64,000 nucleotides of DNA from an uncultured Myxococcales bacterium (GCA_903936705.1 CAIZWN010000005.1:249883-313882); one strand, 5' to 3'. Positions 21,380 to 31,339 are shown, counted from the stretch's first letter. Numbers and translations are program-made. Notes: a model not told the origin generated them from the sequence alone.

Positions 21380-21550
21380 TCAGTGCCCAGGGTCTTTCCA
21401 GTCGATGATTATCTTTTCGTCCGGCATCTTCTGAACCGCCAGTCGGGCCAGCGTCTTCAGTTCCTCGCGGCAGCAGTCTATCGTCTTGGCTTTGTCGATG
21501 CGATCAAGCAGGTCGGCAACAAACTCGCGGATCGTCACTTCGCGCTTCAT
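21380..21550 (-). CDS. Small hypothetical protein, 56 aa, with a Cys-Cys pair
   Basis: Last gene of the radical-SAM operon, 47 bases after the thioredoxin-reductase fusion. The product is mostly helical and charged (MKREVTIREFVADLLDRIDK), with adjacent Cys26-Cys27 and a short beta-like end (KIIIDWKDPGH). AAGGAG lies six bases before the ATG at 21550, and that start is preferred to an upstream in-frame Met. No family is recognised. The Cys pair fits the thiol theme of the operon: it could be a carrier or accessory protein, or a second modification substrate. Confidence 0.7.
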   Translation of the reverse strand: MKREVTIREFVADLLDRIDKAKTIDCCREELKTLARLAVQKMPDEKIIIDWKDPGH

Positions 21551-21597
21551 GACATGCTCCTTCTTCAAATGCGACGCCAAGCATAACGCCAGGAACC

Positions 21598-22890
21598 TCA
21601 GTCGCCAAGCTCCCTTGTTATGGCCATCGCGGCAATGGTGCCGTCAGACACGGCGGTAGTCATCTGGCGGAACTGCTTGCTGCGAACGTCACCAGCCGCG
21701 AACACCCCAGGAACGTTCGTCCGCATGTCCTCCTTGACCTTGACGTACCCGAAATCGTCCAGTTCGAAAGCCTCTCCGAACGGTTCCAGGTTGGGGCGCA
21801 TCCCGGCGAAAATGAACACGCCATCGCATGCGATCCTATGAAGCTCCTTTGTACGCAAATCCTCCACCACCACTTCGCCCACGGTGCTTCCCTGCGCAAC
21901 GAACTCGCGTGGCTCATGCTGGAACATAAAGCCAACCTTCGGGTTCGCGAACAGTGATTCCTGCGCCACGCGGTTGGCCTGCAGCTTGTCGAACTGGTGA
22001 ACGACAGTGATGCGCGAAGCAAACTTGGCGATGAACAGCGATTCCTCGACAGCAGAGTTGCCGCCGCCAATCACGACCACGTGCTTGTCCTGGTAGTACT
22101 TTGCGTCGCAGGTCGCGCAGTAGGAGATTCCGCGGCCGCGATACTCGGATTCTCCCTTGACACCGATCGGTCGAGGGGAAGACCCGGTTGCAACGATGAT
22201 ACGTCGCGCCCGGATCGTCTCGACCCCGTCGATCTCGACCTCCTTCGCAACCAGATCCACCCTCGTAAGGTCCACGGCGGATCGGTGTTCGACACCGGCT
22301 TTCACAGACTGTTCGGCCATGTAGTGCGCCAGAAGATAGCCAGGCTGAGGTTCGATGAAGCCGGGGAAGTTCGAAACCTGATGCGTGATCGACAGATTTC
22401 CGCCGGGCAGTGCCCTGTCGATCACTATGGTCTTGAACCTTGCCTGGGCCGCATATATCCCGGCGGTCAAGCCAGCCGGGCCGGCGCCGATTACAAGCAC
22501 GTCACACTCGGTCGATATCCGCGGCACCTTTGCAGCCAGCACGGCGGCCCTACCGGGCGCCAGCAGCAATTGCAGGTTTCGCTGGACATCGGCGCGCCGG
22601 ATGCCCCCGGTCAATCGATCCCCGACCATGAGTCCGTCCCGGTAGAACAGCAAGGTTGGCGACGATGCGACGCCAAGCGACTCGGAGAGGGCGCGGTTCC
22701 CCTGGCGGTAGATCTTCACGAATCTGACGTCCTCGCCGTAGACGTCGGCAAGCCCCTCGAATTTTGCCGCCAGCGCCTCGCAAGGCGGGCATTCGGTCGA
22801 GTAGAAATCCACGACCACCGGGCGATCCGCGTTCAATACAACCTCTTCAAACCGATCCGCCTCGACATGCAAAATGCGCTCGCTGTTCAT
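21598..22890 (-). CDS. Thioredoxin-thioredoxin reductase fusion
   Basis: A 430-aa protein with an N-terminal thioredoxin domain (residues 1-112) and a C-terminal flavin reductase (about 125-430). The thioredoxin site is ECPPC (Cys34, Cys37) instead of WCGPC. The reductase has the FAD motif GAGPAG (135-140), the redox pair CATC (Cys258, Cys261) and a dinucleotide motif GGGNSAVEE (275-283). The usual NADPH-binding HRRxxxRA is replaced by HQFDKLQA (298-305), so NADPH use is doubtful; NADH or another donor is likely. The domain order is the reverse of the reductase-thioredoxin fusion of Mycobacterium leprae. Its ATG overlaps the radical SAM stop by four bases (ATGA), so the two are translationally coupled. 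Confidence 0.9.
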   Translation of the reverse strand: MNSERILHVEADRFEEVVLNADRPVVVDFYSTECPPCEALAAKFEGLADVYGEDVRFVKIYRQGNRALSESLGVASSPTLLFYRDGLMVGDRLTGGIRRADVQRNLQLLLAPGRAAVLAAKVPRISTECDVLVIGAGPAGLTAGIYAAQARFKTIVIDRALPGGNLSITHQVSNFPGFIEPQPGYLLAHYMAEQSVKAGVEHRSAVDLTRVDLVAKEVEIDGVETIRARRIIVATGSSPRPIGVKGESEYRGRGISYCATCDAKYYQDKHVVVIGGGNSAVEESLFIAKFASRITVVHQFDKLQANRVAQESLFANPKVGFMFQHEPREFVAQGSTVGEVVVEDLRTKELHRIACDGVFIFAGMRPNLEPFGEAFELDDFGYVKVKEDMRTNVPGVFAAGDVRSKQFRQMTTAVSDGTIAAMAITRELGD

Positions 22891-24215
22891 GGTCCCTCCA
22901 CGGGCAAATAGGCAGCTGTACCCAGTTCAAGCAACTCCCTGATCGGACGGCAGTCGGGCGCAAGCAGGCTGCCGGTCCGGTTGCGCGCAACTGACGCGCA
23001 CCCGCCGCCGCATGCGAGACGCGACGAGCACGTCCGGCAGGCTTCTATCGCCAGCACGTCGCGGTCCTGCCACTGCGCGATCTCGTCGTCCTTTCTGGTG
23101 ACTGTCGGCCAGAATGTCCCGACCTCCTCGCCGACCTTGCCAACTGTCGCGGTGCACGAGTAGATGCGCCCGGTGTGATCAAAGGCCCACTCGGTCTTGC
23201 AGCCCGAACACGAATCGAACAGAGGCAAAGGCATCCGGCCGTTGTCGAACAGGAACTTCGAGATCGAATAGGCCGGCCGGTGGAATTCAAGAACCTCGGG
23301 GTGACGACGCGCAAGGTCGAACAGTGCCTCGTACATCTCGAGGCGCGAGTAAAGCACCTGCGAACCGGCATGGCACTCGTGCAATTCGTAGTTGCGACCA
23401 AGTTGGGTCTTGAAGTTCGGGTTCCTGGTCCAGCCACGCTGAATCGCGAAGGTGGCAAGCGCCGGAAGATCCTCGAGGTTGTCGCGATCCACAACGGCTC
23501 GCAGGTTTACAGGGATCCCGGCGCCAAGCGTGGCGTCGACCCCAGCAACGATGGCATCGAAGGTACTGCCGCCTCCTTTCAGGGGCCGGCGGCGGTCGTG
23601 AACCTCCCGAGGGCCATCCAGCGTGACCTGGATTTCCCGAACATCAGCGCGCTGCAGCAGCGGCAGGTATCGTGCAAGTTCGTGCCCGTTGGTGACTACG
23701 GCAATCGGCATCCGGCGTGCAGCGGCCCGATCGACCAACCCCTCAATGACACCCATCGCCGATGCGCCCGGCAGAAGAGGTTCGCCCCCGAACAACGTCA
23801 GGTATGTCCGGCGGCCAGCCATCTCGCGGTCCACGTACTCGAAGAACGCATCCAGAACCTGGGGCCCTGGCAGCCCACCGGACGAGGGGTAGGCGCCCTG
23901 ATAGCAGTATGAGCAACCAAGATTGCAGGCGTACCACGGGGCAAAAAAGATCTGAACCTCGTCCCGATCCCTCCGATCAACGAAATCGAGGTAGGCGCGC
24001 CGGTAGCGCCCCTCCTCCTCGGCAGGATCCACCAGGTAGCCCCGCGCAGCGAAACTGCCGCCTGGGTCTGGCCGACCCGCCTGGATTTCAGCAGCCTCGT
24101 CCGCAGTCAGCACGTCGGCACAACCCGACAGCGGGTTAACGACGAACCAGGACGCGGACCCGCGAACCGGCCCTACGATGTTGTGTCGCGAAGGTTGCAG
24201 CAGAGGTGTTTCCAC
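22887..24215 (-). CDS. Radical SAM/SPASM peptide-maturase-like enzyme
   Basis: A 442-aa iron-sulfur enzyme. An N-terminal ~85-residue region (WFVVNPLSGCADVLTADEA) resembles the leader-binding or accessory parts of peptide-modifying radical SAM enzymes. The radical SAM motif CNLGCSYCY has Cys97, Cys101 and Cys104, followed by the GGEP loop (TLFGGEPLL). The C-terminal SPASM region has cysteines in DSCSGCKTEW, YSCTATVG, CRTCSSRLACGGGC and APDCRP, enough for two auxiliary clusters. The GTG start lies one base after the stop codon of the 50-codon peptide gene and has no good ribosome site of its own, implying reinitiation after the peptide. SPASM enzymes typically modify ribosomal peptides or activate enzymes; the reaction here is unknown. 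Confidence 0.9.
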   Translation of the reverse strand: METPLLQPSRHNIVGPVRGSASWFVVNPLSGCADVLTADEAAEIQAGRPDPGGSFAARGYLVDPAEEEGRYRRAYLDFVDRRDRDEVQIFFAPWYACNLGCSYCYQGAYPSSGGLPGPQVLDAFFEYVDREMAGRRTYLTLFGGEPLLPGASAMGVIEGLVDRAAARRMPIAVVTNGHELARYLPLLQRADVREIQVTLDGPREVHDRRRPLKGGGSTFDAIVAGVDATLGAGIPVNLRAVVDRDNLEDLPALATFAIQRGWTRNPNFKTQLGRNYELHECHAGSQVLYSRLEMYEALFDLARRHPEVLEFHRPAYSISKFLFDNGRMPLPLFDSCSGCKTEWAFDHTGRIYSCTATVGKVGEEVGTFWPTVTRKDDEIAQWQDRDVLAIEACRTCSSRLACGGGCASVARNRTGSLLAPDCRPIRELLELGTAAYLPVEGP

Positions 24216-24216
24216 G

Positions 24217-24369
24217 TCAGTCGTGGCAGCCCATGCTGGGCCCCGAGACCTTGGCGCAACACTGTGCCTGGGCCTTCTCGGGTGCGGCCTGGACCGTGCG
24301 TTCCTGAACGACCGGAGGTGTCTTGCCTGGCTCGATGGTCGTTGTACGATTCCTGGTGATCGGCTTCAT
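24217..24369 (-). CDS. Putative precursor peptide, 50 aa
   Basis: A short gene with GGAGG four bases before ATG, set 17 bases after the methyltransferase and one base before the radical SAM start. The N-terminal ~30 residues are polar, Thr/Pro/Gln-rich and Cys-free (MKPITRNRTTTIEPGKTPPV). The end is a compact Cys-containing segment, AQCCAKVSGPSMGCHD, with Cys37, Cys38, Cys48 and a final His-Asp. A leader-like half followed by a Cys/Gly/Ser-rich core directly before a radical SAM/SPASM gene is the usual form of a RiPP precursor. There is no signal peptide or transporter nearby. Substrate status is inferred from position and composition. Confidence 0.75.
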   Translation of the reverse strand: MKPITRNRTTTIEPGKTPPVVQERTVQAAPEKAQAQCCAKVSGPSMGCHD

Positions 24370-24386
24370 GGTTCCTCCATTAATTT

Positions 24387-25043
24387 TCAACCACAGCGAC
24401 AGCCACTTGGCTTGGCGCCGGCGATCGTAAAACTTGCGACCCGAATCCGGCCCTTTTCATAGGGCTCGCTTTCCTCTATCACCTTCAGGCCAACCAGGCC
24501 CGCAGCGGCCACTGTCGACAGGTACAATTCCCGCCGCACCGAACCGGCCCAGCACTCGGCGACCGCCTCCGGATCAGTCGAGTAGGCTTCTGGAACATCG
24601 TCGATGGCGTAGATATCGCTGACCACGAAGCGGCCACCCGGTTTCAGGACACGGTGAATCTCGTGCCATACGGCTGTCTTGTCCTCGGCATGGTTGATCG
24701 TGCAGTTCGAGACGACCAAGTCAACCGTCTCGTCCGCCAAAGGGACGCATTCCAGCGCAGACTTCAAGAACGTGACGTTTTCCAGGCCAAGTTTGGCCGC
24801 GTTCCGCCTGGATTTTTCCAGCATGGCGTCCGACACATCCAGCCCATAGGCATGCCCGTCGATGCCTACGGCCTCGGCCAGTCGCAACACATCCTGCCCT
24901 CGCCCGCTGCCGAGATCCAGGCAGACCTCACCTTGACGGGCCTCAGCGTACCTGACGGCTCCACCGCACGAAAGGCAGCACGAACTCTCGGCGAGTTGTC
25001 CGTATCGTGCCTCGATGACCTTGGTAGCTCCAGCTTCTATCAT
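24387..25043 (-). CDS. ArsM-like SAM-dependent methyltransferase
   Basis: A 218-aa class I methyltransferase most like arsenite methyltransferases. Visible blocks: SSCCLSCGG (Cys22, Cys23, Cys26), the SAM motif VCLDLGSGRGQDVLRLAEAVG, ISNC-type VVSNCTINHAEDK, RVLKPGGRFVVSDIYAIDD and AVAECWAGSV, and the C-terminal end GCRCG. Cysteines near the N-terminus and in the ECWAG block correspond in position to conserved As(III)-binding cysteines of ArsM. It could methylate arsenic, another metalloid, or a thiol of the peptide encoded next. Its ATG overlaps the marR-type stop by four bases and the ribosome site GAGG lies inside that gene. An upstream extension in frame overlaps the regulator and is rejected. 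Confidence 0.85.
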   Translation of the reverse strand: MIEAGATKVIEARYGQLAESSCCLSCGGAVRYAEARQGEVCLDLGSGRGQDVLRLAEAVGIDGHAYGLDVSDAMLEKSRRNAAKLGLENVTFLKSALECVPLADETVDLVVSNCTINHAEDKTAVWHEIHRVLKPGGRFVVSDIYAIDDVPEAYSTDPEAVAECWAGSVRRELYLSTVAAAGLVGLKVIEESEPYEKGRIRVASFTIAGAKPSGCRCG

Positions 25044-25492
25044 GTTGCCTCGATGACCTGCGCCAAAGTGTTCAGCCCGGTCTGAACCTGTGCCAGTTCC
25101 AACGGTGACATGCGCCCGGTCAGAATCTCGTCGCAGTGGCAGACAAGCGTATCGATACGACGCCGCATGGCGCCTCCGCTGATCGACAACACCAGCATCT
25201 GGGCGCGCCGGTCGGTCGGATCGTCCTCGCGCCTCAGGAATCCCAACCTTACAAGGTCGTCTATCACCCGCCCCCCTCGGGACGCCGATAACCCTGTCAG
25301 GCGGGACAATTCCCCGGTAGGGACAGACCCGCATGAAGGCATACGACAAAGGCACCTGTACTGCGGCAGCGTCAAGCCGGTAAGCTCGAGGATCTCGGTC
25401 TCCTTCTCCTCGCAAAATCCGCGCAGCCGCTGGATCAGTGTCATCAGCGAACCGGAAGGCGACGCATTGTTGCTTGTAGCACTAGTTGTCAT
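25040..25492 (-). CDS. MarR-family transcriptional regulator, cysteine-rich
   Basis: A 150-aa winged-helix regulator of the MarR type: PTGELSRLTGLSASRGGRVIDDLVRLGFL is read as recognition helices, followed by the wing segment REDDPTDRRAQMLVLS. Six cysteines are grouped as CLC (47, 49), Cys54 and CHC (118, 120) plus Cys27, unusual for MarR and suggesting thiol, redox or metal(loid) sensing. ATG at 25492 lies so close to the predicted -10 box that the mRNA may be leaderless; an in-frame TTG at 25498 is an alternative. A palindrome covers the start codon. It is the first gene of the radical-SAM operon and most likely represses it. Confidence 0.88.
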   Translation of the reverse strand: MTTSATSNNASPSGSLMTLIQRLRGFCEEKETEILELTGLTLPQYRCLCRMPSCGSVPTGELSRLTGLSASRGGRVIDDLVRLGFLRREDDPTDRRAQMLVLSISGGAMRRRIDTLVCHCDEILTGRMSPLELAQVQTGLNTLAQVIEAT

Positions 25493-25501
25493 ACGCAACT
25501 A
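25483..25501. promoter_or_regulatory. Palindromic operator for the MarR-type regulator
   Basis: TAGTTG-N7-CAACTA, perfect six-base arms, spanning the end of the -10 box and the ATG of the regulator gene. The form matches many MarR-family operators. Confidence 0.6.
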
Positions 25502-25528
25502 AATAGGTCGTCCACGTCACGCTGTCAA
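25500..25528 (-). promoter_or_regulatory. Promoter of the radical-SAM peptide operon
   Basis: Perfect TTGACA (25523-25528, minus strand), 17-base spacer, TATTTA (25500-25505). The start falls at about 25492-25494, on or next to the regulator ATG, and the operator overlaps it. Confidence 0.65.
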
Positions 25529-25553: not shown

Positions 25554-26744
25554 TCAGCACTGCTTGATGCTCCCAGGCAGGGGAAAACCTTGACGAGGGA
25601 TCCATACACGCACCAAGGTCCCATGCCCGGGGGTGGATTCGATATCGACCTGCCCACCAAGCGACTTTGCCATCTCGTGCATCGAAATCAAACCCAGGGT
25701 CTCACTGCGCCTTTCGACTACGGCCTCCCGCGCAAAACCACATCCATCGTCGCGAACTGTCATCCTGAGCCCCGGTTTCGAAGCATACAGCCGCACCTTA
25801 ACGACCTTTGCTGCGCCATGACTGGCTGCGTTGGTAAGTGCCTCCTGGGCAATTCGGAAAAGCACCATTGCGGTCTCGCGATCAATTACTGCTCCATGCG
25901 TTCCGTCGGTGAAATGCACTCGCAGCGCAGTTCCCCTGGTGACCGTTTCAAAGTGATAGCGCAGGGCAGCAGTCAATCCCAGCAGATCCAAATCGGGCGG
26001 CCGAAGGCGAATCGCCAGATCCTTGAGTGACGCCAAGGCCTGGTCGAATACGCGCCTGAGTTCGTGCAGTGATTCGATCGCCTGTCGCACCCGGCCTGCA
26101 CGCAGGTCATCCTCGGCCGCGACCAGGCGACCCTTCACGCCAATTGCCAGGGACCCAGTGTCGTGGTGCAGCGCTGTCGAAATGCGCCTCTTTTCGTCCT
26201 CCCTGGTGGAAAGCAGCCTGCGCGAGAAGCCGCGAATCTCTTCCTCGGCCATCTTGATATCGGTAACATCCCGGAACACTGCGGCAATTTCGCCGAACGG
26301 CAGCTTGAACACGCTGTTTCTGAACCAGAACCTCAGGCGCCCGTCGTCGTACCGAAAGGCTGGAATCTCCTGGGGCTGACCGGTCCGCCATACCCACCGA
26401 AACGATTCCAGCAAACCGGACACGACCATGCCCGGCAGGATTTCGCGCACGTCCCGCCCTATCGCATCCTCCCGTTTCAACGCGATGATGTGCGCACAGG
26501 CCGGGTTGAGGCCCGCAAGGAAGAATTCGTTGCCATCGTCACGGGTTCCACAGATAGCAATGCCATCAGTGTTCCTTTCGAACAGTTCGCGATACCGCAT
26601 TGCAAGATCGTTAAAGTAGCTTGGATCCTCCGAAATCAGCACCGAACCGGAGCGCTTCAGGCTGGCAGCCTCGGAAGCCCGCAGAATCAGGGCAGTCGCA
26701 TCACTAATCCCATTTGCGCCATCGACCATCTTTACGTGCGCCAA
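25554..26744 (-). CDS. PAS-domain histidine kinase, NarL/DegS type
   Basis: A 396-aa soluble kinase. A PAS domain occupies about residues 48-165 (ELFERNTDGIAICG; VFRDVTDIKMAEEE). The HisKA_3 dimer domain has EKRRISTALHHDTG with His194 as likely phosphoacceptor, and the ATPase domain has LTNAASHGAAK and VRDDGCGF. The TTG start is supported by GGAGG six bases upstream; a Met at codon 6 lacks one. No response regulator of the NarL class is in the window, so it is an orphan here. It lies just after the metal efflux operon and before the radical-SAM operon, and could serve either. Confidence 0.85.
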   Translation of the reverse strand: MAHVKMVDGANGISDATALILRASEAASLKRSGSVLISEDPSYFNDLAMRYRELFERNTDGIAICGTRDDGNEFFLAGLNPACAHIIALKREDAIGRDVREILPGMVVSGLLESFRWVWRTGQPQEIPAFRYDDGRLRFWFRNSVFKLPFGEIAAVFRDVTDIKMAEEEIRGFSRRLLSTREDEKRRISTALHHDTGSLAIGVKGRLVAAEDDLRAGRVRQAIESLHELRRVFDQALASLKDLAIRLRPPDLDLLGLTAALRYHFETVTRGTALRVHFTDGTHGAVIDRETAMVLFRIAQEALTNAASHGAAKVVKVRLYASKPGLRMTVRDDGCGFAREAVVERRSETLGLISMHEMAKSLGGQVDIESTPGHGTLVRVWIPRQGFPLPGSIKQC

Positions 26745-26818
26745 GATTTGCCTCCTTCAGACGTTGCCACGTCACAAGGGAGAACAAGCCGAAAAAAGCT
26801 GGCGCTGACAGTGATTGA

Positions 26819-26847
26819 ATTCTACACGAAGGCCGATTTTCGGTCAG
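26819..26847 (-). promoter_or_regulatory. Possible promoter of the PAS kinase
   Basis: CTGACC (26842-26847, minus strand), 17-base spacer, TAGAAT (26819-26824), placed just after the efflux pump stop codon. Confidence 0.4.
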
Positions 26848-26859
26848 GATTCTTCCTGG

Positions 26860-29800
26860 TCAACCAACGGTCCCTTCCCGCACCCCGGCAGACCACACGT
26901 ATATGGCCGGCAGAACCACCAGTGTCAGCAGAGTGCAGGAGATGAGCCCCCCCATCACTACGACCGCCAGAGGCCTCTGGATATCCGCTCCAGACCCGGT
27001 GGCGTATAACATTGGAAGATGCCCAATGAAGCTGGTCAGAGCGGTCATCAGCAAGGGTCTGAACCTGAGCTTGCATCCCTCGCGAACGGTATCGGCCACA
27101 AGGTAGCCTCGGCTTCGCAACTGCCGGAAGAATGCAACCAGGACCACGCCGTTCTGAACCGCTATACCCAGCAGCACGATGAACGCGACAGCGGCGGAAA
27201 CGGACAGTTCCATCCCGAATCCCACGACCGCTACCACCCCCCCTACCAGGGCGAACGGAAGGTTCAACAACACCAGCAGCGAGTCCCTGACCGTCCCCAG
27301 CGCCATGTAAAGCAGGATCAGCACCATCAGGAAGGCGACCGGCCCGACTATCGACAACTGCCGCATCGCCCGCTGCTGGTTCTCGAACTGCCCGCCGTAT
27401 TCCAGAAACGAACCAGCAGGCAGGCCAGCCGAGATGCCCTCGAGTTTTTCCTGCACCTCCGCCACAAATCCGCCAAGATCCCGCCCGCGCACGTTCGACT
27501 CAACCACAACGCGTCTGACGCCGTTCTCGCGTCCGACCTGCGCCGGAGCCTCGACGAAACGCACCAAGGCCAACTGCCCCAGGGGAACACGCTCGCCGCC
27601 AGCCCCCCGAATCAACAGTCTCTCAACGTCGCCCACCCACCGTCGATTGGCTTCGGGTAACCGAACCACGATAGCGAACCGTCGCTGGTCCTCGATGAAA
27701 GTGGATGCCACGCTGCCGCCAATACCGGTCTCTATGGCCTCGTTCACGTCCGCTATGTTGATGCCATACCGCGCCACTGCAGCCCGGTTGATCTCGACAT
27801 CAAGCTGGCTCATGCCCGAGACCTGCTCGACCCGCACGTCCTGGGCGCCCTCGATCCCGCGCACGACAGTCGCGACGCGGTCAGCCTCACGCTTCAGAAG
27901 ATCAAGGTCATCGCCGAAAACCTTGACCGCAAGGTCGCTTTTGACGCCCGAAATCAGTTCGTTGACGCGCAAGGCGATGGGCTGCGAGAAGGACAGCCTA
28001 AGGCCGGGGATCTGCCCGATGTCCTGCTGGATTGCCGCGACCAGTTCCGTCTTGTCGCGCCCCGTGCCCCATTCCTTCCGGGGCTTCAGCATGACGAATA
28101 CATCGGTCTGCTCGGGACCCATCGGGTCCTCCGAAATCTCGGCGCGCCCGCTCTTGCTGACCACCGTTTCAACCTCGGGGAACCGCATGAGGCGCTTCTC
28201 GATGAAGTCGGACACGCGTGTTGTGCCCTCCAAAGACGCGTTGGGCAATCGCACGACGTTGATGGCGATGGATCCTTCGTCCAGCGGGGGCATGAACTCG
28301 GTCCCGATCAACGGCGTCAAGGCCCCAGCCCCTGCCAGCAACACCACGGCGGCTCCCACGGTGATCCGAGGGTGGCGGATCGCGCGATCCAGCAACCTCA
28401 GATAGGCATCGGAAATCCTGCGAACGAACCCGAATTCACGCTCGGGGACCTGGCGCAGCACCCAGGCTGCCAGCACTGGCACGATCGTATAGGCCACCGC
28501 CAACGACACCAGAAGCGCGATCAACATCGTTGACGCAAGGGGCCGGAACATCTTCCCCTCAATCCCTTGCAGCGAATACAGCGGCACCAGAATGATCCCG
28601 ATGATCAGGACGGAAAAGGCCACGGGTCGCGCGACCTCGCCGAACGCCTCGGACACGACACGCAGCTTCGAACCTGCTTCAGAACGATGTGCCAGGTGCC
28701 TCCGTATGTTCTCGACGACCACGATGGAGGCGTCCACCACCATTCCAACCGAGAAGGCCAGGCCGCCAAGGCTCATAAGGTTGGACGAGATGCCGGCCAG
28801 CCTCATCACGATGAACGTAACCAGGAACGTGAACGGCAGCGAGAAAAGCACGATAAGAGCTGTGCGCAGTTCGGCAAGAAACAGGAAAAGCACCAAAACC
28901 ACGAGTATTCCGCCCTCCAGCAGCACGTCCATAACGGTACGGATACACGCCTCGATCAGCGAGGTTCGATCGTAGAACACCGACAGCCGAACTCCGTCCG
29001 GCAGCGAGCCCTGGACCTTCGCGATTGCCTCCTTGGTACGATCAACCACGTCCTTGGAATTCTCGCCCTTCAGCAGAATCACCAGGCCAGCAACGACCTC
29101 GCCCTTGCCGTCACGCGTGACCGCGCCCTGCCGCGGCTCGGCACCGATCACGACGTCGGCCACGTCACGCACCGTGACGGGCGCACCATCATGGCTCTTC
29201 AGCACTATCCGCTCGATGTCCGGCAGATCCTTCAACAAACCCACGCCACGCAGGTAGACCTGCTCCCAGTCACGAACCAGCACGCCACCACCGGCGTTGG
29301 CATTGTTCTTCTCGACCGCTTCGACAACGTTCTGAAGTGTCAAACCATAGCCAACCAGTCGATCCGGATGGACAAGCACCTGATACTGCTTGACGAAACC
29401 GCCGAAACTGTTGATCTCGTTGACCCCAGGGATCGGCTTCAGGCGCGGCGCGACAACCCAATCCTGCAAAGTCCTCAGTTCTGTTGGCGACAGTTGATCA
29501 CTCTCCAGCGTGTACTGGAAGATCTCGCCCAGGCCGGTGCTGATTGGGCCCAGTTCAGGTTCGACCCGGGGAGGAAGCTTGTCCCGCACGTCAGCCAGAC
29601 GCTCGAAGACTACCTGCCGCGTCCAGTATGTTTCCGCGTCGTCGTCGAATACGACAACCACCTGGGACAGCCCGGCACGTGACAGTGAGCGAACCTGCTT
29701 GACCCGCGGCAGGCCGCGCATCAATTGCTCGATCGGATAGCTGACCCTCTGCTCGACATCGACCGCAGCCAACCCAGGAGCCTTGGACAGCACCATGACC

Positions 29801-29934
29801 TGCACGTTCGTAACATCGGGAAACGCGTCGATAGGCAGGCGGGTCCAGGCCACGATGCCAAGGCCGGCCAGGATCACCGTGACCAGGACCACCAGCAACC
29901 TGTTCCCAAGCAACCATTCCATGAAGCGCTGCAT
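26860..29934 (-). CDS. Heavy-metal RND efflux pump, CzcA/CusA family
   Basis: A 1024-aa inner-membrane RND transporter that drives metal ions out across the cell envelope with the proton gradient. It has the RND order: one helix, a large periplasmic loop, six helices, a second loop, five helices. Heavy-metal-branch features are RVSYPIEQLMRGLPRVKQVR near the N-terminus, SVGMVVDASIVVVENIRR in helix 4, and SGRAEISEDPMGPEQTDVFV before the second half. Zn/Co/Cd versus Cu/Ag cannot be decided by eye: the helix-4 motif lacks the classic CzcA DFG. GAGGGGG precedes the ATG; the adaptor gene ends ten bases upstream. Confidence 0.93.
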   Translation of the reverse strand: MQRFMEWLLGNRLLVVLVTVILAGLGIVAWTRLPIDAFPDVTNVQVMVLSKAPGLAAVDVEQRVSYPIEQLMRGLPRVKQVRSLSRAGLSQVVVVFDDDAETYWTRQVVFERLADVRDKLPPRVEPELGPISTGLGEIFQYTLESDQLSPTELRTLQDWVVAPRLKPIPGVNEINSFGGFVKQYQVLVHPDRLVGYGLTLQNVVEAVEKNNANAGGGVLVRDWEQVYLRGVGLLKDLPDIERIVLKSHDGAPVTVRDVADVVIGAEPRQGAVTRDGKGEVVAGLVILLKGENSKDVVDRTKEAIAKVQGSLPDGVRLSVFYDRTSLIEACIRTVMDVLLEGGILVVLVLFLFLAELRTALIVLFSLPFTFLVTFIVMRLAGISSNLMSLGGLAFSVGMVVDASIVVVENIRRHLAHRSEAGSKLRVVSEAFGEVARPVAFSVLIIGIILVPLYSLQGIEGKMFRPLASTMLIALLVSLAVAYTIVPVLAAWVLRQVPEREFGFVRRISDAYLRLLDRAIRHPRITVGAAVVLLAGAGALTPLIGTEFMPPLDEGSIAINVVRLPNASLEGTTRVSDFIEKRLMRFPEVETVVSKSGRAEISEDPMGPEQTDVFVMLKPRKEWGTGRDKTELVAAIQQDIGQIPGLRLSFSQPIALRVNELISGVKSDLAVKVFGDDLDLLKREADRVATVVRGIEGAQDVRVEQVSGMSQLDVEINRAAVARYGINIADVNEAIETGIGGSVASTFIEDQRRFAIVVRLPEANRRWVGDVERLLIRGAGGERVPLGQLALVRFVEAPAQVGRENGVRRVVVESNVRGRDLGGFVAEVQEKLEGISAGLPAGSFLEYGGQFENQQRAMRQLSIVGPVAFLMVLILLYMALGTVRDSLLVLLNLPFALVGGVVAVVGFGMELSVSAAVAFIVLLGIAVQNGVVLVAFFRQLRSRGYLVADTVREGCKLRFRPLLMTALTSFIGHLPMLYATGSGADIQRPLAVVVMGGLISCTLLTLVVLPAIYVWSAGVREGTVG

Positions 29935-29944
29935 GTTTCCCCCT

Positions 29945-31339
29945 CTAGTCCGCGCAGCCGGCGCCCATTTTCGAGCGCAGGACGTCGGACTTCAGGAGAA
30001 ATGCGCCGTCGGCGGCCACCTTCTGGCCCGCCTGGATCCCCCCCTTGATTTCGACCCAGCCATCCCATTCCCTGCCGACGCGAACCGGCCGCCGAACCCA
30101 GAAGTCCCCGTGATGCGGGACGAACACGAATGATCTCCCCTCGTCAATCATCAGGGCCGGACGCGGGATCGCCAGGACAACATCGTCCCCTGGCAGGCCC
30201 AGCTTGACATTCGCAAACATCCCCGGCCGCAGCTTGCCGTCGGGGTTGGCAGCGGACACGCGCGCCTTCACCGTGCGGGATTCACGGTCCATCACCGAAC
30301 CCAGCAGGTCCAGCGTACCCAGGAATTCCTGGTCGGGAAAAGCCTTCACGGTCACGACCGCTGCGACCGGTCCCTTTCCCAGACGGTCCTGGACCGTGCC
30401 CAGATTGTCCTCGTACAGGTCGGCCAGGACCCAGACCGGATCGGTTTCACCAATAACCATTGTGCTCTCGCCGGCCTTTGCTGCCTCGCCGGCTACGGCG
30501 TGCATCTCTACAACACGACCGTCTATCGGCGCCCGAACAACCAACCGACCCCGGGCGCTTCCCAAGCGACTCGCCCCCCCCAACGACTTCAAGTCGGACG
30601 TGTCCAGCCCAAGGCGCAAAAGGCGTTCGGAAGCTGCCCTGACCCTGATGTCGGCCGCCTCGAACGCCTGCCCGGCCTCCAGTGCCTCACGCTGGGACGA
30701 GACGCCTTCGCGGCGCAGCGCCTGCTGCCTCTCCAGAGTTCGCGCCGCAAGTTCAAGCGACGCCCGGGCGACCAGGTACTCACCCTGAGCATCGCCAAGA
30801 ACGATGCTGTCCACCTCGATCAACGCCTGCCCGCCCTTGACCCGGTCGCCCAACTGGACGTGCACCGCACGAATGACTCCGTCCGTGCGTGGAGCAAGAT
30901 GAGTGACCCGCCGCTCGTCGAAACGAACTTCGCCAGTCAAGGCCAACGGTGCTTCAACCGTACGCATGACAGCCTGGGCGATCCGTATCAAGCCGCCCTC
31001 GACCAGACATGGAGCAACCTTCACAACCCCCATCTCATAGCGGCACTCATCGCACTCGAAGGTCTTGACCCCATGTTCGCAACCTGCGCCAAACAGTTCC
31101 TCGACCGGACGATCAAGGTCGGATACCTGATCTCCCTCGCCATCGGAGTGTCCACCGGCTAACTTCGCAGATTCGTGTCCATCCGAGACCTGGGTCCGGG
31201 GGTTCTTGTCCTCCCGGGCGGGCTTCGTCTCGGCCGGCGACCTGGACGGCGGCACTTGCTTCCCGCAGGCAATCGCGAACATCAGCCCCACCAGGATCAT
31301 CGGCCGGCCGATTCGACTGGTCATTGTGTCATCGCACAT
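29945..31339 (-). CDS. RND efflux periplasmic adaptor, CzcB/CusB family
   Basis: A 464-aa membrane-fusion lipoprotein (lipobox AIAC, Cys25) linking the pump to the outer-membrane channel. After a charged linker comes a metal-site-like element, CEHGVKTFECDECRYEMG, seen in many heavy-metal adaptors and probably a metal loader. Then follow lipoyl halves (APRTDGVIRAVHVQLGDRVK; VRAPIDGRVVEMHAVAGE) around a helical hairpin, and the beta-barrel. ATG at 31339 overlaps the channel gene by 11 bases and has a G-run eight bases upstream; ATG at 31324 is the alternative. Confidence 0.9.
   Translation of the reverse strand: MCDDTMTSRIGRPMILVGLMFAIACGKQVPPSRSPAETKPAREDKNPRTQVSDGHESAKLAGGHSDGEGDQVSDLDRPVEELFGAGCEHGVKTFECDECRYEMGVVKVAPCLVEGGLIRIAQAVMRTVEAPLALTGEVRFDERRVTHLAPRTDGVIRAVHVQLGDRVKGGQALIEVDSIVLGDAQGEYLVARASLELAARTLERQQALRREGVSSQREALEAGQAFEAADIRVRAASERLLRLGLDTSDLKSLGGASRLGSARGRLVVRAPIDGRVVEMHAVAGEAAKAGESTMVIGETDPVWVLADLYEDNLGTVQDRLGKGPVAAVVTVKAFPDQEFLGTLDLLGSVMDRESRTVKARVSAANPDGKLRPGMFANVKLGLPGDDVVLAIPRPALMIDEGRSFVFVPHHGDFWVRRPVRVGREWDGWVEIKGGIQAGQKVAADGAFLLKSDVLRSKMGAGCAD

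Follow-up and report, generated by a model that had tools for sequence, protein, structure and literature searches.

What is made by a small bacterial operon in which a radical S-adenosylmethionine (SAM) enzyme of the SPASM type lies beside a cysteine-containing peptide, an ArsM-like methyltransferase and a thioredoxin-thioredoxin reductase fusion? The question is raised by positions 21380-25528 of a stretch of 64,000 nucleotides, the window, from an uncultured Myxococcales bacterium (GCA_903936705.1 CAIZWN010000005.1:249883-313882), whose nearest relatives are Myxococcales metagenome-assembled genomes (MAGs). The answer proposed here, to which we give an even chance, is a cassette of the type that makes ribosomally synthesized and post-translationally modified peptides (RiPPs), devoted to an intracellular thiol peptide which would be cross-linked by the radical SAM enzyme and reduced by the fusion, the methyltransferase acting on a thiophilic atom. 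The last 16 residues of this peptide are nearly identical over several bacterial phyla.

The precursor peptide of 50 residues (MKPITRNRTTTIEPGKTPPVVQERTVQAAPEKAQAQCCAKVSGPSMGCHD; positions 24217..24369, minus strand) terminates in a core, AQCC[AS]Kx[ST]x4GCHD (24220..24267, minus strand), delineated by the comparison of homologous loci. Exactly one open reading frame (ORF) ending in AQCCAKxSx4GCHD followed by a stop codon occurs in 85 of the 88 distinct close loci, with ten invariant positions; the three cysteines, the histidine and the aspartate are all invariant. The peptide is equally kept in the 12 divergent or additional spirochaete loci (12/12), so that the short precursor gene beside a maturase, by which a RiPP is recognized, is found in both sets. 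Three loci (L079, L094 and L021) are devoid of the core ORF: L079 begins within its radical SAM gene at a contig end, the radical SAM gene of L021 lies close to a contig end, and the genomes of L079 and L094 contain the core motif elsewhere in the assembly. The 85 cores are encoded by 84 distinct DNA sequences using the full range of synonymous codons, and selection, of the purifying type, therefore acts on the amino acids. Searched as DNA, the pattern of the core gives a single match per copy and its reversed control none in all genomes searched. Judged from these sequence comparisons, the peptide is a genuine gene and not a chance ORF. The homologous peptides, 30 to 53 residues long, associate a short basic leader (MKSLxKKK-like) with the fixed C-terminal core, which contains the CC pair and the third cysteine. 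A second cysteine pair (ACCAP, SCGC or SCC) lies within the leader region, leaving the core unchanged, in L020, L022, L024, L051, L090, L100, L047, L064-L066 and L128-L130.

The cassette, consisting of methyltransferase, peptide, radical SAM enzyme and fusion, was found at about 100 loci of Myxococcota, Bacteroidota/Ignavibacteria, Spirochaetota, Elusimicrobia and Bdellovibrio MAGs, nearly all the relatives being MAGs. From 84,980 species genomes, the search retrieved 80 loci with a radical SAM enzyme 50-84% identical, distributed among Bacteroidota, Ignavibacteria, Spirochaetes, Myxococcales/Deltaproteobacteria, Elusimicrobia and Bdellovibrio MAGs, and nearly all of them display, on one strand, the methyltransferase, a short gap containing a tiny ORF, the radical SAM gene and the fusion. 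The order methyltransferase-peptide-radical SAM-(fusion) is maintained across phyla while the identity of the radical SAM enzyme decreases from 82% to about 34%. Within the window's class (52 genomes), the core was detected in 8 genomes, each of them one of the 9 that possess the radical SAM gene, and in the ninth this gene lies near a contig end; one genome (G001) harbors three copies each of core and enzyme. Among 296 Bacteroidota genomes, core motif and radical SAM enzyme (at least 59% identical to the query) are found in the same five. Enzymes conserved at loci that lack the peptide, the finding which an earlier, sequence-only reading of this DNA had named as fatal to its own idea, were looked for; given the 85 of 88 loci and the five shared genomes, the idea survived.

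The radical SAM enzyme was also detected in 26 of 296 Spirochaetota genomes. A divergent spirochaete branch, 34-39% identical to the window, retains the methyltransferase, the radical SAM enzyme and a peptide with the core AQCC[A/S]Kx[S/T]x4GCHD, together with the fusion where the contig permits. A still more distant enzyme (L133, 30% identical) is accompanied by neither peptide, methyltransferase nor fusion and marks an outer limit of the family. Over 77 loci, the distance matrices computed for methyltransferase, radical SAM enzyme and fusion correlate with r = 0.87-0.92. Methyltransferase and dithiol reductase, which the sequence-only reading had taken for integral parts of the system, do travel with the cassette. 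Locus L023 is rearranged: thioredoxin and its reductase are encoded separately on the minus strand, alongside the methyltransferase and the peptide, and the radical SAM gene is convergent on the plus strand. In a copy from the same genus as the window (L018, G002:C107:21865-23171), the radical SAM gene is split by a frameshift, either because the copy is decaying or through an error of assembly, and the peptide core is intact.

The radical SAM/SPASM maturase (22887..24215, minus strand; Pfam PF04055, 2.3e-16) possesses the CX3CX2C motif at C97/C101/C104 and the SPASM cysteines C336-x12-G-x4-C354, C393x2C396x5C402x3C406 and C422, all invariant in 97 of 97 sequences. Its predicted structure (pLDDT 88.6) finds its best match among solved folds in the ranthipeptide maturase CteB (5wgg, Z 26.6, residues 9-440). 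Most other maturases align to the model only from about residue 80, and the match to CteB takes in the N-terminal domain; the first 80 residues (approximately 9-83) would fold, from our reading of the model, as a RiPP recognition element (RRE)-like domain of β3-α3 order. Scores remain far below the curated cutoffs of the known maturase families: 63.5 bits for a cutoff of 425 with TIGR03974 (SCIFF/ranthipeptide), 115/600 with CefB NF038107, 104/525 with TIGR04463, 101/400 with the geopeptide family TIGR04280 and 81/340 with PapB NF047865. The invariant cysteines, the RRE-like domain and the conservation of the peptide thus support the initial recognition of a RiPP layout in this pair of genes.

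The ArsM-like SAM methyltransferase of 218 residues (24387..25043, minus strand; PRK11873, 4e-55) was modeled with a pLDDT of 91, and the folds that match it best are those of ArsM (CmArsM 4fr0, Z 24.1, 32% identity), the best non-ArsM fold reaching 22.0. Binding of As(III) requires three thiols. Residues C26, C114 and C164, invariant in 92 of 92 sequences, align with C72, C174 and C224 of CmArsM, which are its As(III) ligands (PMC3877260). The thioredoxin-thioredoxin reductase fusion (21598..22890, minus strand; PF00085, 2.1e-17; PF07992) carries the redox motifs CPPC (C34/C37) and CATC (C258/C261), whose four cysteines are invariant in 85 of 85 sequences; with TIGR01292 (3.2e-96) it scores 321.7 bits, slightly under the cutoff of 343, both fold domains and redox motifs being present. 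Since thioredoxin, its reductase and NADPH are the reductant of AS3MT (PMC12608789), the fusion would have a natural role next to such a methyltransferase.

From these elements the following sequence of events may be proposed. The ribosome makes the peptide, with the basic leader and the fixed cysteine core that are read from its gene. The RRE-like domain of the CteB-like enzyme would then bind the leader, and radical chemistry would cross-link the core, most probably through a thioether joining a cysteine to one of the conserved residues, for instance the invariant Ser/Thr, the type of reaction being the least certain step. CteB itself, which possesses an RRE and two SPASM clusters, links Cys to Thr, and the link in CteA was reported as Cys32-Thr37, five residues apart, a later report giving Thr34 (PMC8326336). 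A spacing of five residues likewise separates the first core cysteine from the invariant Ser/Thr, a suggestive but weak parallel. The fusion, drawing on NADPH, would maintain in the reduced state both the peptide thiols left free and the methyltransferase cysteines, and the peptide might offer a thiophilic atom, As(III) fitting best, to the three-cysteine site of the methyltransferase, or might itself be methylated. The cassette occurs in single copy in most genomes, and no exporter or peptidase is conserved in it; together with the invariant core, these features point to a cofactor or carrier rather than to an antibiotic. The most ambitious form of the proposal, rather improbable, would place the mature peptide among the low-molecular-weight thiol cofactors, as a ribosomal equivalent of glutathione, mycothiol or trypanothione served by its own reductase at the expense of NADPH. 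The peptide would ferry As(III) or reduced sulfur to the methyltransferase devoted to it and would be, at its boldest, an organoarsenical RiPP in which the radical SAM enzyme also forms a peptide carbon-arsenic bond.

Several observations weigh against the proposed thiol-peptide cassette, which is drawn from genes, alignments and predicted folds. The methyltransferase of the window and that of L035 score 187 and 192 bits, respectively, below the PRK11873 cutoff of 263, and the protein is therefore ArsM-like, not a proven ArsM. The core offers a Ser/Thr acceptor, in contrast to the Thr Cγ chemistry of CteA, and serine has no γ carbon. The missing peptidase could equally mean that an unlinked protease acts. 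No ars genes, at which no dedicated profile search was aimed, figure among the recurrent neighbor clusters, and sulfur genes do recur as neighbors of the cassette. In Bacteroidota these comprise an SQR-like flavoprotein (21 loci; Protein Data Bank match to sulfide:quinone reductase (SQR), 4.7e-28), a rhodanese-thioredoxin or thioredoxin (32), DUF302 (23), DUF1847 (18), DUF6132 (18) and Sulf_transp. As(III) fits the methyltransferase as a substrate and reduced sulfur fits the Bacteroidota neighbors, which speak for a different system, in which the modified peptide would carry or detoxify sulfane sulfur or sulfide as a persulfide and the methyltransferase would methylate sulfide or a peptide thiol. 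This is nevertheless doubtful, considering that no recurrence of the same neighbors was observed in the Myxococcota loci or in most of the Spirochaetota loci and that the methyltransferase retains the complete As(III) tri-cysteine set.

SAM methyltransferases are common tailoring enzymes of RiPPs, and the methyltransferase and peptide genes are neighbors at nearly every locus, from which one could imagine that the enzyme modifies the peptide in a second tailoring reaction, by S-methylation or another methylation, leading to a product devoid of any metalloid role. Such an outcome seems unlikely, since it gives no obvious reason for the arsenic-binding cysteines to stay invariant and a methylated thiol would need no dedicated reductase. 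Finally, sets of Cys, His and Asp can bind metals, and the invariance of all five such residues of the core would suit a small unmodified metal- or Fe-S-binding protein with Cys3-His ligands, the radical SAM enzyme acting on something else; the strict co-occurrence of the peptide with a maturase of CteB-like architecture, provided with an RRE-like leader-binding domain, makes this very improbable.

At the locus itself, the six minus-strand genes announced by the sequence-only reading are all present at their coordinates with the domains assigned to them, in the order MarR, ArsM-like methyltransferase, peptide, radical SAM/SPASM enzyme, fusion and a 56-residue CC protein. Domain searches recovered MarR, ArsM-like Methyltransf_31, Radical_SAM with the SPASM cysteines, and Thioredoxin with Pyr_redox_2; no NCBIfam or Pfam family matched the peptide or the CC protein, and an Rfam search of the window gave no match. 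MarR (25498-25040) and the methyltransferase (25043-24387) overlap by 4 nucleotides; 17 nucleotides separate the latter from the peptide gene (24369-24217), which has its own ribosome-binding site GGAGG; a single base lies between the peptide stop codon and the GTG start of the radical SAM gene (24215); and the radical SAM gene (24215-22887) overlaps the fusion (22890-21598) by 4 nucleotides. The CC protein (21380..21550, minus strand), an accessory protein with a TIDCC motif, starts with an ATG at 21550 after AAGGAG, 47 nucleotides past the fusion, and has homologues downstream of the cassette in relatives, with 64-78% identity in same-genus loci and 40-46% in the spirochaete loci L070 and L042.

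The MarR regulator (25040..25498, minus strand; Pfam PF01047, 1.5e-8) was rightly described as cysteine-rich, since C29 and C122 are invariant in the nine aligned MarRs of these loci. Comparison of the regions upstream of the MarR genes of relatives revealed a promoter and a predicted operator (TTGCGTATGACAA; 25486..25498, minus strand), with the -35 box TTGACA at 25528-25523 and the -10 box TATTTA at 25505-25500 in the window, the operator spanning the MarR start. Of the 10 loci that bear a MarR gene, 9 have the motif TTG[CT]N5[AG]CAA no more than about 100 nucleotides from the MarR start (mean 0.09 and maximum 2 after shuffling). The motif is doubled 16 base pairs apart in five loci and follows TTGACA by 27-30 nucleotides in four. 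The promoter-operator TTGCN5GCAA was located in the window (25486-25528) and in L017, L027, L033, L035, L042, L044, L052 and L132. A dedicated cysteine-bearing MarR with a conserved operator is compatible with the sensing of a thiol-reactive signal: the two-cysteine repressor would bind TTGCN5GCAA and thiol-reactive species would relieve the repression.

The same strand carries, upstream of the operon, a PAS/HATPase sensor kinase followed by a CusA/CzcA-family resistance-nodulation-division (RND) pump and its adaptor (25554-31339, the RND genes at 26860-31339). The metal-efflux theme formerly read from this proximity is rejected, these genes being local to the window and not among the main recurrent neighbors of the relatives. 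Bacteroidota cassettes continue into genes for DUF302, the SQR-like flavoprotein, DUF1847 and rhodanese-thioredoxin (L048:10690-12268, L085:9336-12760, L101:11592-12568). A plasmid origin was also rejected, since plasmid radical SAM matches are distant, the best placed showing 29% identity.

Among known systems, the closest is SCIFF/ranthipeptide (CteA-CteB; TIGR03974), widespread and not antibiotic-like, in which a radical SAM/SPASM enzyme with an RRE stands beside a short cysteine peptide; the present core, however, has three cysteines instead of six in about 45 residues, and the cassette adds the ArsM-like methyltransferase and the fusion and occurs in other phyla. The methyltransferase resembles ArsM/AS3MT in fold and arsenic-binding cysteines but is shorter than CmArsM and lies beside a peptide and its maturase. 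Mycofactocin and PQQ are cofactors derived from single-copy peptides with an invariant C-terminal core and a radical SAM/SPASM maturase, as in this cassette, which differs by its cysteine-based core, its thiol reductase and the lack of a conserved separate PqqD-like partner or peptidase. Pairs of ArsM and radical SAM enzymes are known for organoarsenicals, as in arsenosugar ArsM-ArsS and arsinothricin ArsQML, and BgArsL of the latter pathway likely holds one Fe-S cluster (PMC8552651). Unlike the cassette, with its SPASM maturase and ribosomal peptide and no conserved transporter, ArsQML relies on a radical enzyme which is not a SPASM peptide maturase. A survey of Bacteroidales RiPPs names a single methyltransferase and no thioredoxin (PMC10352776), and no description of the core motif strings or of the gene combination was found in the open-access literature, a description in a subscription journal being possible.

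A core conserved over phyla beside maturase, methyltransferase and reductase therefore suggests a peptide cofactor, or a system handling metalloids or sulfur, of a kind not yet described, and not a one-off oddity. It defines a peptide family, without a name in NCBIfam, Pfam or the open-access literature searched, whose near-invariant 16-residue core co-travels with the three enzymes in at least five bacterial groups, and which can be searched for at once by its exact core, its gene order and its operator. It also opens to test a role of RiPPs as thiol cofactors and a coupling, in bacteria, of radical SAM peptide chemistry to the methylation of arsenic or sulfur.

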